The notes under the pieces were generated by a model, which was given only the letters and a program-made list of their open reading frames with translations, searched no databases and had not been told where the DNA came from. Of a stretch of 64,000 nt of DNA, positions 1 to 12,098 are shown piece after piece. The stretch is from NCBI RefSeq assembly GCF_000955805.1, contig NZ_JYOA01000019.1, positions 1 to 64,000 on the forward strand, in the 5' to 3' direction. The translations under genes were made by a program, and so were the position numbers. The number at the start of each line of letters is the position of its first letter. The stretch's first letter is position 1. Source of the stretch: Pseudomonas sp. 21. GTDB taxonomy: Bacteria > Pseudomonadota > Gammaproteobacteria > Pseudomonadales > Pseudomonadaceae.

Positions 1-660
1 CTAGGAAAGCCGGGGCGATTCATGTTGTAAACATCTCACCTCCAAAAAGAACCCTATAGAGTGTAGCTCTATAGGGCTCATTTGACATCAGCCCGTGTCG
101 CAATCAGCGGCTCGAGCCGACGATCAGCTAGCCGATAGCAAAGCTCCTTCCAGCGCATTTCCCCAGTAGGACCGGAAGGGCTTTTACCTTGAGCCATAAG
201 GCGCGTTCTCGCTCGCGCTCTGTACCCAAGGCTCAAGGCCAACACGGTCTTTCGCGGAGAACTGTGAAGGCCAGCCGCGGCGCTTGAGCTTCGGGCAATC
301 GCCGTGACGGGTTGGGTCGAGGCCTGGAGTCGGAGAGCGGCGCTGTGGCGTCGTCCACACTAAAGCTGTACAAGGGCGCTATCTCGTGGTTTAGCTCTTT
401 AATTCCGTAGTTCGTAGATTGATCACTTCCGAGGAATTGATGGTCCGACGTTTGCCGCCAGCAGTGGAACTGCAGCACGACTACAGCCGTGAGATGAGGA
501 TGACAAACTGGCCATAGGTGATCAGGTAAAAGCTAGAAAACCTTGTAGCTCTAGGCGAAATAGCTTTCATAAGCCACTGATAGAAAAGGCTTTATAGTTT
601 TTAAGTGATTTTTCGCATATTTAACTGAATACGACAGCAGTGGTGCCGCTTCTCAGCCCT
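1..660. other. Gene-poor left flank of the dif site
   Basis: No convincing gene is seen in this stretch. It is visibly less GC-rich than the rest of the window, especially at 480-660. Short open frames exist but have no ribosome binding site and no recognisable protein features. It holds one terminator-like hairpin near its left end, and an isolated TTCGCATA at 612-619 that equals part of the XerC-binding arm of the nearby dif site. Such a stretch is compatible with ordinary terminus DNA or with a decayed element inserted at dif. Confidence 0.5.
42..76 (-). terminator. Probable Rho-independent terminator, minus strand
   Basis: A perfect 10-bp inverted repeat (CCCTATAGAG at 52-61, CTCTATAGGG at 67-76) has a 5-base loop. 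On the minus strand it is followed by TTCTTTTT (complement of 44-51). The stem is AT-rich for this genome, and no clear minus-strand gene lies directly upstream of it in the window, so the transcript it would end is unknown. Confidence 0.45.
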
Positions 661-663
661 TAG

Positions 664-691
664 GCTTCGCATAATGTATATTATGTTAAAT
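664..691 (+). other. dif: dif site, XerC/XerD chromosome dimer resolution
   Basis: The 28 bases read GCTTCGCATAA (XerC arm), TGTATA (central region), TTATGTTAAAT (XerD arm). The central hexamer and XerD arm are identical to the E. coli dif site as I remember it, and the XerC arm differs only in its outer bases. From memory it is also nearly identical to the published P. aeruginosa dif. At dif the XerC and XerD tyrosine recombinases, activated by the FtsK translocase, resolve chromosome dimers at the septum. One copy per chromosome is expected, in the replication terminus. Mobile elements that exploit Xer recombination can also carry or duplicate dif-like sites, so a second copy left of the window is possible. 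Confidence 0.9.
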
Positions 692-902
692 TACAGATAG
701 ACCGATGGGTCGTTATCCAGGGCTGTCTGCTATTTCCGCATTCCCCACCAATTCTCCAACTGCTCCTTCAGCGATCCATTCTGGTCAACGCCATTTCCCC
801 GCGAGCATCCCCCGACAACTTCGAAAGCATTTGGCACGAGCCCGACTATTCTTCTGTGCATACGGCCTGCCGGAACTCCGATGGGCAACCAGGAGACGCT
901 TC

Positions 903-1631
903 TTGAATCGGACTCGACTGCTCACTGCATCCTGCCTGTCACTGATTTCGTTCTTCGTCCACGCCCAAACCCAGGTGGCTTTTCTCCAGGGCCACCTCTA
1001 CGAGCTTCGTCGCGATACTTCGCCAGCCACTTGCACCGAGTGGCCAAACGGCCTCCCGGACGGTGTCTGGGGCAATGGCGGCGATTACGTTCCCGATGGC
1101 GAACACCTGAGCGCAAATGGCGATGTGCTGATCACGTCGGCGATCTACAAGCCCACGGGTATCCGCGTTTCCCACACCTTCTATAAAAGCCGGCAGTCCT
1201 GCCTTGCGGACCTTTCCCCGCAACCGCAGGCGACGGCCGTGACGCACGACGGCCAGGGAAGCTACGTCGACAGGCTGCAGCGTAATTTCGGCAGCCGCCT
1301 GTATTTCAGTTCCGCCGAGGCCGAAGCCCTGGTGAAGAAGATCAATATCGACTGCAAGGCTCCCGATGGTCGTTACCTGCCGCTCTACAACGCACTTCTG
1401 GCGCGCCTGGATGAAGGCAGCACGCCCGATGCCTGGATGGAAACCAGCGTGGTCAACACCGGCAAGAAGCTGCAGGTGTTCGACAGCGTTCGGCTGAAAA
1501 GCGGCAAGGAGCTCACGCCTCAGCTGACCCTGGAAATCAACGAGTTCGGCGGGTACGAAACCCACGGCGTGCGCCCGCAGGCGCTGTCGAATGCCTGCTT
1601 TGGCAGCTACGGCCCGATCTGGAAGCTCTAG
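903..1631 (+). CDS. Secreted protein of unknown function
   Basis: I do not recognise this 242-residue protein. The start is placed at a TTG codon because AGGAG lies 7 bases upstream (891-895) and because the protein then opens with a typical signal peptide: a basic start (NRTR), a hydrophobic stretch, and a probable cleavage after VHA at about residue 20. The frame is open back to 705, but that extension is not secretion-like. The mature part contains several cysteines (CTEW, SCLADL, DCKA, ACFG), suggesting disulfide bonds in the periplasm. It is the first gene after the dif site and stands alone, with about 330 bases before the next gene. Periplasmic or extracellular location is inferred from the signal peptide only. 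Confidence 0.6.
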   Translation: MNRTRLLTASCLSLISFFVHAQTQVAFLQGHLYELRRDTSPATCTEWPNGLPDGVWGNGGDYVPDGEHLSANGDVLITSAIYKPTGIRVSHTFYKSRQSCLADLSPQPQATAVTHDGQGSYVDRLQRNFGSRLYFSSAEAEALVKKINIDCKAPDGRYLPLYNALLARLDEGSTPDAWMETSVVNTGKKLQVFDSVRLKSGKELTPQLTLEINEFGGYETHGVRPQALSNACFGSYGPIWKL

Positions 1632-1964
1632 TTTTCCTCACCCCTCGTAAGTATTTGAATCTGCTGGATTTGTCTTTTCCGACAGGTGATGCCGACTTAA
1701 GCTCGCCGGCCGGCAAAAAGCTGCGGATCACCCATACTCATTCCACACCGATCAGCGCCTGCCAAGCCATCCACGACGCGTGGCCTGTGCGAGGCGAGTG
1801 CCTGAACGGCGCAGTAGCAGATGCAAGCCCCCTGCTCTCTTTCCCCAGAGAAGCCCTGGGAGCGGGGTGTCGTGGCCGCCAGGATGCAGCCGGCGGGACA
1901 AGCACCCGCCGGGCAATATCGACAGGGCCAAGAGGCCCGCAAGGAATCACAAGAGGGCTGATGA
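1632..1964. other. Intergenic stretch without a recognisable gene
   Basis: Open frames here overlap one another on both strands and show no ribosome binding site or protein-like composition. I see no strong terminator or repeat. The last bases contain AGAGGG at 1951-1956, which serves as ribosome binding site for the antiporter gene that follows, so the promoter of the 2.0-8.6 kb operon probably lies here. Confidence 0.4.
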
Positions 1965-3791
1965 ATGCCACATGACGGGAGCCTGCTGCAGGCGACGGTA
2001 ATCTTCCTGCTGACGGTCGTCATTCTCGTACCCCTGGCGCAACGCCTGAGGTTGGGCGCAGTGCCGGGTTATCTGCTGGCCGGCATCCTCATCGGTCCGT
2101 CCATTCTGGGCCTGGTCAGCCATCCAGAGAACGTCAGCCGCCTCTCGGAGATGGGCGTGGTGATGCTGCTGTTCATCATCGGCCTGGAGCTTTCCCCGCG
2201 CCGCCTGTGGATGATGCGGCGCTCGCTGTTCGGTGTAGGGTCGCTGCAGGTGGGGCTGACGGCTCTGGCGCTCGGGCTGATCGCCTTCCTGCTGTTCGAC
2301 CAGTCGCCTGCCGCTGCGGTGGTACTGGGCGTGGGCCTGGCGCTCTCCTCCACCGCCTTCGGCCTGCAGGTACTGGCCGAGCGCAAGGAACTGGGCAAGC
2401 CCCATGGCCGGTTGGCCGTGGGCATTCTTTTATTCCAGGATATCGCCGCCATTCCGCTGATCGCCGTGGTGCCGCTGCTGGCCGGTAGCGGTGATCCGTC
2501 AAACGAAGGCATTCGCCCGTTGCTGACGGTGGCTGTCGGTATCGGTGTGGTGGTGATCGGCGGCCGTTACCTGCTGCGCCCGGTGTTTGCCTGGGCGGTC
2601 GGCTCGGGGCTGCGCGAGCTCTCCACCGCCACCGCGCTGCTGGTGGTGCTGGGCACCGCCTGGATCATGGAGCACGTGGGTGTGTCCATGGCGCTGGGCG
2701 CCTTCCTCGCCGGCATGCTGATGGCCGAGTCGCAGTTCCGCCATGAACTGGAATCCCAGATCGAGCCGCTCAAGGGCTTGTTGCTCGGTTTGTTCTTCGT
2801 GGGCGTGGGCATGACTGCCGACCTCAGTCTGCTGGTCGATGCGCCGTTACTGGTACTGGGCCTGACGGTGCTGCTGGTCGGCATCAAGCTTCCGCTGCTG
2901 TTCGGTCTCGGGCGCTTCACGGGTGGACTGCAACGTTCCGAGGCGCTCTGCCTTGGCGTGGTACTGGCGTCCGGCGGCGAGTTCGCCTTCGTGGTGTTCA
3001 AGCTGGCCCTGGATCACCACCTGCTGGATCAGCGGGTGCACGACGTGCTGGTACTGGTCATCACCCTGTCGATGGCCGTGGTGCCGCTGGTGATGATGGC
3101 GCTGGCCCGCCAGTTGCGCGGCGATGCGCCCGCCGCCGCGGTGCCGGATGGGCCGCCGGAAGTGAGCGACGAACCGCGCGTGGTGATAGCCGGCATGGGC
3201 CGCATGGGCCGGGTGGTCGCCAATCTGTTGCAGGCCCAGGGTGTATCGGTGGTGGCGCTGGATACCTCGATGGACGCCATCGTTCGCCAGACCGAGGAAG
3301 GCCATGTGCCGGTGTACTACGGCGATCCGACGCGCCCGGAAATCCTCCACGCCGCCAAGGTCGGCGAGGCGGAACTGGTGATAGTCGCCACCGACGATCC
3401 GCAGATCAACCTGAACACCGTGGACGCCCTCTCCCGCCTCTACCCCAAGACCCGCGTGATCTCTCGCGCGCTGAACCGCCAGCAGGTCCTGCAATTGCTC
3501 GACCGGGGCGCCAATCCGGTACGCGAAACCTTCCATTCCAGCCTGGAGATGGGTCGCCGCGCCTTCATCGAACTGGGCGTGAGCGAAGAGCAGGCCGCCG
3601 CCTGGGTGCGCCGCTACCAGTTGCAGGAAGTGCAGTCGCTGCTTGAACTGCACCGCCAGGGCCGCGACGACGAACCCGGCGGCCGCTTCGCCGACGATGG
3701 CAGCGGACTTGCCGGTGTCACGCCCGCCGCGGCACAACAACCCGAGCAACCCCAACCAGGCGCTGATCAGCGCAATGACCGCCCCGCCTGA
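1965..3791 (+). CDS. Kef-type monovalent cation:proton antiporter (CPA2 family)
   Basis: This 608-residue inner-membrane protein has the CPA2 layout: about twelve hydrophobic segments over residues 5-385, then a cytoplasmic TrkA-N (RCK) domain from about residue 402. The RCK domain shows the nucleotide-binding glycine motif AGMGRMG. KefB and KefC of E. coli (about 600-620 residues) are potassium/proton antiporters gated by glutathione adducts, and YbaL is a related protein. Which of these this gene matches best cannot be told by eye, so the ion and gating ligand are open. The start ATG at 1965 has AGAGGG upstream. The next gene follows after 11 bases, so it leads an apparent five-gene operon ending in an exporter. 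The C-terminal tail after the RCK domain is proline/alanine-rich and probably disordered. Confidence 0.85.
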   Translation: MPHDGSLLQATVIFLLTVVILVPLAQRLRLGAVPGYLLAGILIGPSILGLVSHPENVSRLSEMGVVMLLFIIGLELSPRRLWMMRRSLFGVGSLQVGLTALALGLIAFLLFDQSPAAAVVLGVGLALSSTAFGLQVLAERKELGKPHGRLAVGILLFQDIAAIPLIAVVPLLAGSGDPSNEGIRPLLTVAVGIGVVVIGGRYLLRPVFAWAVGSGLRELSTATALLVVLGTAWIMEHVGVSMALGAFLAGMLMAESQFRHELESQIEPLKGLLLGLFFVGVGMTADLSLLVDAPLLVLGLTVLLVGIKLPLLFGLGRFTGGLQRSEALCLGVVLASGGEFAFVVFKLALDHHLLDQRVHDVLVLVITLSMAVVPLVMMALARQLRGDAPAAAVPDGPPEVSDEPRVVIAGMGRMGRVVANLLQAQGVSVVALDTSMDAIVRQTEEGHVPVYYGDPTRPEILHAAKVGEAELVIVATDDPQINLNTVDALSRLYPKTRVISRALNRQQVLQLLDRGANPVRETFHSSLEMGRRAFIELGVSEEQAAAWVRRYQLQEVQSLLELHRQGRDDEPGGRFADDGSGLAGVTPAAAQQPEQPQPGADQRNDRPA

Positions 3792-11204: not shown

Positions 11205-12098
11205 CTACGGCCGCGAATAGACCTTGAACAGGTTCTGGTCCAGCTCACTCGGCGCGCCGAAATACCTGCTGTACAGGGGCAGGAAGGCGTCGGAGCGGTA
11301 CAGCTCGCTCAACGCGGTATCCACCTGCAGGCGGAAGTCCCCATCGCCGCGCGGCATCGCCAATGCAACCGGGGCGAACTCGAAGCGGCGACTGAGCACC
11401 ATCAGGTTGGCCTTGCCAGGGCTGCGTTCCACCAGGCTACGCAGGGTCATCTGGTCGTAGAAGAAAGCGTCGGCCTTGCCGGCAGCCACTGCTTCCAGGC
11501 CTTCCGCCGGGCCTGCCACCGCCTGCACGGTCGCCAGCACCTTGAGCAGGCGCAGTTTTTCCCGCACCCAGGTTTCCACTCGCGTATTGCCGGGTACCGC
11601 AAAGGTATAGGCCGCCAGGCCGCGATTGAGCGTGGCGCGCCAGGTCGGCCCGCTCTGGTCCACCTCACCGTTGAGCGAGCGGACCAGGAAGAATGGCGCA
11701 TCCTTGCGCACCACCACGCCCAGCCCGGCGGTGTATACGGGCAGGGAGAAATCGAGGCGCTGGCGCAGCTTCAGGGTTTCCGCCATCGGGCTGCAGAGCA
11801 GGTCGACGCCGCCGGCTTGCACCGCTTCCAGCGCCTTGTCGGCATCCAGCGGGACGAAGCGCACCTGCATTTGCGCCAGGCCCGGCAGGGTCCGCAACTG
11901 GTCAGCCACCTTCTGGCACAGGTCGATTCCGTAGCCGACGGCGACCTCGGCTTCGCTGGCGGAGAACGGCGGGCGCTCCGGCAGGTAGCCCAGGTTCAGG
12001 GTGTGGCTGCTGCGAATGCGCTCCAGGGTCTGGGCCGGGGCCGCCAGCGGCAACACGCCGGCCAGCAGGAGGATGACGCGGGGGAACCAGCGTTTCAT
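11205..12098 (-). CDS. Periplasmic amino-acid-type binding protein (SBP family 3)
   Basis: The 297-residue protein starts with a signal peptide (MKRWFPRVILLLAGVLPLAAPAQ, cut after about residue 22). Its body is typical of family-3 solute-binding proteins: TLNLGYLPERPPFS, then GYGIDLCQKVADQL, the DLLCSPMAETLKLRQRLDFS loop, and a second lobe with AGKADAFFYDQ. It therefore probably binds an amino acid or amine in the periplasm. Its ATG overlaps the stop of the PotE-like antiporter gene by 4 bases, so the two are translationally linked. No ABC permease or ATPase lies nearby, which is unusual for this family. It may serve an unlinked transporter, or sense the antiporter substrate. Confidence 0.8.
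   Translation of the reverse strand: MKRWFPRVILLLAGVLPLAAPAQTLERIRSSHTLNLGYLPERPPFSASEAEVAVGYGIDLCQKVADQLRTLPGLAQMQVRFVPLDADKALEAVQAGGVDLLCSPMAETLKLRQRLDFSLPVYTAGLGVVVRKDAPFFLVRSLNGEVDQSGPTWRATLNRGLAAYTFAVPGNTRVETWVREKLRLLKVLATVQAVAGPAEGLEAVAAGKADAFFYDQMTLRSLVERSPGKANLMVLSRRFEFAPVALAMPRGDGDFRLQVDTALSELYRSDAFLPLYSRYFGAPSELDQNLFKVYSRP

Follow-up and report, generated by a model that had tools for sequence, protein, structure and literature searches.

A chromosomal dif site beside a contig end in the draft genome of Pseudomonas sp. 21

Introduction

Is a 28-base sequence near the start of a Pseudomonas sp. 21 contig the chromosomal dif site of this genome, the border of an integrated mobile element, or a chance resemblance? 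The window analysed here comprises the first 64,000 bases of contig C11 (C11:1-64000), which has 107,667 bases and belongs to a draft genome of 6,326,189 bases in 42 contigs. An earlier note, made from the letters of the window, had placed dif at 664-691 and had it mark the replication terminus. Proteobacterial dif is defined as a 28-base site composed of an XerC arm, a centre and an XerD arm (PMC2731167, excerpt). According to a review, KOPS load FtsK in a defined orientation, after which FtsK travels to XerCD-dif and activates XerD, and chromosome dimers are resolved (PMC5357621).

Results

The 28-mer GCTTCGCATAATGTATATTATGTTAAAT, at 664-691 on the plus strand of the window, is a dif-type site with an 11 + 6 + 11 base architecture (XerC arm, centre and XerD arm) and an inner dyad symmetry. 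Its XerC-binding arm GCTTCGCATAA (664-674, plus strand) differed from that of the P. aeruginosa PAO1 dif solely at position 2, and the central hexamer TGTATA (675-680) and the XerD-binding arm TTATGTTAAAT (681-691), both on the plus strand, were the same as in PAO1 (PMC2731167, excerpt). The 64-kb window contained a single match to dif with up to 3 mismatches allowed, and none of 100 shuffled windows contained any match at this threshold. Compared with E. coli dif, the site had two mismatches, both confined to the XerC arm (positions 2 and 4), and the same centre and XerD arm, in keeping with the earlier description of an XerC arm differing at its outer bases. No ORF of 60 aa or more overlapped 664-691, and an Rfam scan of the window at gathering thresholds returned no matches. 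The ORF that adjoins dif (705-1631) had no Pfam or NCBIfam match at E 0.001; it was conserved in a relative (G007) from about 880, and the listed ATG at 705 is probably too early as a start.

A search of the 42 contigs with the 24-base dif core at up to 3 mismatches gave exactly one match, and the reversed-pattern control gave none. When the centre was left free and 3 mismatches were allowed over the arms, 3 matches were obtained, as many as the reversed control gave (3); apart from dif itself, they carried 2 and 3 mismatches, which is chance level, and thus no second dif-like site stood out. The single genomic copy expected by the earlier note was therefore found, dispersed extra copies were not found in the draft, and the assembled chromosome carries one copy, as is typical of dif. 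The same pattern of one match per genome, at up to 2 mismatches, was observed in 33 of 37 genomes, Pseudomonas sp. 21 included; the four genomes without a match at this threshold (G021, G025, G028 and G034) included two that were less than 90% complete. Within the genus, 23 of 24 genomes had a dif match, and 20 of those 23 carried the exact 24-base core. The 27-mer occurred in at least 119 stretches of named genomes, and the 80 matches listed included Pseudomonas, Stutzerimonas, Halomonas and Methylobacter. Among the matches listed, the first dif base was G, as here, in 20 and A in 98 of the 118 copies with that base readable. The exact 24-base core was also present in many short viral contigs, in a number of cases near the contig end (L221-L300), as would be expected for phages integrating at dif. 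Both recombinases are encoded in the genome, XerD on C33 (385 bits versus an NCBIfam cut-off of 329.6) and XerC on C2 (356 bits versus a cut-off of 335).

C11 starts 663 bases to the left of dif and lacks the left flank, which we sought on other contigs by comparison with relatives. The left dif flank of G007, whose genes resemble, by their translations, those for a serine acetyltransferase and a dihydrodipicolinate synthase, matched C5 at 15617-9735, read toward C5:1, with a weak match (68%) at C5 423-248; matches of 66-75% were also found on C38, C1, C41 and C33. Of 12 dif loci of the same genus (L010-L021), each including at most 1.5 kb of flank, those of G007 and G022 matched this part of C5 beside dif, and the other ten showed no such match. 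A syntenic match in C5 to the immediate left dif flank of G002 was not found; in that genome, the genes matching C5 stand about 102 kb to the left of dif. G013 matched C5 and C11 in scattered pieces alone (4 and 2, respectively, of at least 400 bases). Both genomes were consequently dropped as guides to the left neighbour, and the C5-C11 junction stays putative because they failed in this role. C5 is thus the probable rather than the proven left neighbour of C11 at dif, since G007 and G022 match it and 10 of the 12 loci and G002 do not. As a separate observation, about 9.3 kb of C5 (L059:424-9734) was absent from G007 at the corresponding place; four of its genes had Pfam assignments (an ABC transporter binding protein, a permease, a DUF347 protein and a PMT-type glycosyltransferase), and others resembled response regulator and sensor genes by eye.

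The left end of C11 coincides with the end of an IS3-family-like insertion sequence (1-22, strand not assigned). A 20-mer at C11:3-22 recurred at C5:1-20 (L059:1-20), at C11:107647-107666 (L034:7647-7666) and at the end of C41 (397921-397940, the end of L094), so that four contig ends of Pseudomonas sp. 21 carry one and the same element end. A full-length relative of the element, 1231 bp long and 93% alike, was present in G001 and G018 (the L023 copy has 1231 bp), and the G001 copy encodes an integrase-core transposase. A search of the Pseudomonas sp. 21 assembly, at up to 3 mismatches, for the opposite element end of G001 and G018 gave no match. Pairing the four ends by target-site duplication failed, as the 3-4 bases beside them, compared by eye, agreed in no pair. 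Because all four are the same end of the element, the opposite end was not found and no target-site duplication pairs them, the contig joins are not proven.

The distribution of KOPS GGGNAGGG was strongly polar. In the window, KOPS lay between 6402 and 58640, with 11 of 12 on the minus strand and hence pointing toward dif, and a single plus-strand motif at 11739; their number was not above chance (12 versus a shuffle mean of 15.2), so that the bias resided in strand alone. Across the whole genome, KOPS numbered 1090 and the reversed motif 510. The earlier note had predicted that KOPS would change orientation at this site, and they did: to the right of dif, C11 carried 2 forward and 18 reverse motifs, 18 of the 20 being aimed at dif, and C5 in reversed orientation, as the putative left neighbour, carried 32 forward and 1 reverse, 32 of the 33 being opposite to C11. 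Three relatives that have dif inside a contig, where both flanks could be read, agreed, with forward/reverse counts to the left and right of dif of 33/6 and 0/22 in G002, 31/2 and 2/28 in G013, and 14/0 and 1/12 in G007. The best KOPS switch interval spanned dif in all four sequences (joined C5-C11, G002, G013 and G007), and in joined C5-C11 it extended from -3.8 to +5.7 kb relative to dif. KOPS thus converge on dif from both sides, the right side being read on C11 and the left side on the probable neighbour C5. The scrambled control GGGANGGG, which was rarer than KOPS, was biased too (13/3 left and 2/6 right in Pseudomonas sp. 21; 11/0 and 3/15 in G013), indicating that general G-richness accounts for part of the KOPS bias.

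GC skew switched close to the same point. In joined C5-C11 (about 260 kb, with the junction putative), the cumulative GC-skew maximum lay +2.6 kb from dif, in line with the skew switch foreseen by the earlier note, on a local scale. Local maxima in the relatives lay at -32.7 kb (G002), +14.3 kb (G013) and +2.7 kb (G007) from dif, in stretches of 280, 280 and 140 kb, respectively, rather than whole chromosomes. A GC-skew switch was thus found near dif on these local stretches; the skew is weak, and its peak lies 14 and 33 kb from dif in two of the relatives. The 42-contig draft of Pseudomonas sp. 21 gives no oriC-dif distance; in all five of the single-contig relatives computed, the dnaA-to-dif distance was 0.430, 0.476, 0.483, 0.485 and 0.492 of the circle.

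The contigs flanking dif were rearranged relative to those of the relatives. Relative to G007, the left dif flank occupies 9.7-56 kb of C5, and C5:134563-151747 corresponds to a stretch located 59-83 kb to the right of dif in both G007 and G002. In the comparison with G002, a match to C41 approached from the opposite side and reached this same point, 76 kb to the right of dif; it stopped 3.7 kb short of the C41 end. The presence of the relatives' right-arm stretch on C5 together with the left dif flank suggests an inversion around dif, and the alignments fit an event that would have moved this stretch to the other arm with KOPS polarity still correct. It is well known that inversions occur around the terminus. 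We put forward, tentatively and with less than even confidence, that copies of the multi-copy insertion sequence lying 663 bp from dif served as inversion end points, and that stretches may thereby have swapped arms with KOPS polarity correct.

An Xer-type element, once integrated, has a dif-like site at either border. The 28-mer at 664-691 might accordingly be the attachment copy of an Xer-integrating element (an IMEX or a filamentous phage), with 1-663 as element DNA. Such an origin would account for the 660 bases to the left of dif having no long match in 55 other genomes (a match of about 23-37 bases was seen in 6 of the 55), for the lower GC content (52%) of this stretch, which ends at the contig end, and for the occurrence of the 24-mer in at least 120 stretches of viral contigs. 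Neither the core search nor the looser search of the draft contigs gave a second dif-like copy above chance, so that one site rather than two is present in the assembled contigs; the assembly leaves the gap to the left of C11:1 uncovered, and a second site could hide there. Comparison of window positions 1-900 with 239 dif loci and phage contigs at E 0.01 yielded no alignment starting left of 640 and none ending left of 664, and the sole alignment longer than 60 bases (L190, 658-740) ran across dif. Variability on either side of dif has, moreover, already been published (PMC2731167, excerpt). The junction of an IMEX or prophage was rejected because no second dif-like site was found and the part of the window to the left of dif was unmatched in all 239 fetched loci and phage contigs, and we regard it as very improbable. 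Positions 1-3000 of the window matched 1 record of a phage collection and 120 of a plasmid collection; the matches listed (20 of them from plasmids) fell within 1984-3000, an antiporter gene away from dif. That 664-691 is a dif-like sequence arising by chance in an unrelated stretch is refuted by the shuffled windows (0 of 100 with a match) and by the single genomic copy lying where KOPS and skew switch; nothing was found in favour of this reading, and its probability is negligible.

Discussion

Taken together, the sequence, the single core copy and the coinciding KOPS and skew switches agree with the earlier call, and 664-691 is almost certainly the functional chromosomal dif of a genome of the genus Pseudomonas; no finding spoke against dif itself. 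This identification is based on the observed sequence, its single copy, the XerC and XerD genes, the converging KOPS, the local skew switch and the mid-chromosome position of dif in relatives. Binding, activation by FtsK and recombination are attributed to the site by analogy with the known family. By that analogy, XerC would occupy the left dif arm and XerD the right arm, and FtsK at the division septum would be guided by the KOPS converging on dif from either side. FtsK would then pair the two dif sites that a dimeric chromosome carries and activate XerD, and XerCD recombination at dif would convert the dimer to monomers ahead of cell division.

The dif site places and orients the window, with dif at its left end and one chromosome arm extending to the right, and we infer from KOPS and skew that the plus strand runs from the terminus toward oriC. 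The earlier statement that dif orients the window where genes would not was right about orientation and overstated the role of dif, which is not the sole clue since KOPS polarity orients the window as well. Replication of the P. aeruginosa PAO1-UW chromosome ended opposite oriC, at a distance of 682 kb from the GC-skew switch, and less than 15 kb separated that switch from dif (PMC6199493, excerpt). For this reason, the earlier wording, that dif marks the replication terminus, claims too much for Pseudomonas. What dif marks is the end of segregation, the point of dimer resolution and the skew switch; it marks the replication terminus often, not always.

The site is a textbook dif of an ordinary, already known kind and adds no new biology. 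It shares with the E. coli dif/XerCD-FtsK system 26 of 28 bases, with the same centre and XerD arm, as well as converging GGGNAGGG KOPS, and differs from it at XerC-arm positions 2 and 4. Alignment of the window began at 880 in G007 and at 819 in G002, short matches across dif aside, which fits the published high variability of the sequence flanking dif on either side (PMC2731167, excerpt). The same source describes conservation as higher in the XerD arm than in the XerC arm and highest in the inner parts, and names position 2 as the one that varies most within the outer XerC region. With the P. aeruginosa PAO1 dif, which also lies near a GC-skew maximum (14,962 bp; table in the excerpt of PMC2731167), the site shares 27 of 28 bases, the single difference being C at position 2 in Pseudomonas sp. 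21 versus A in PAO1.
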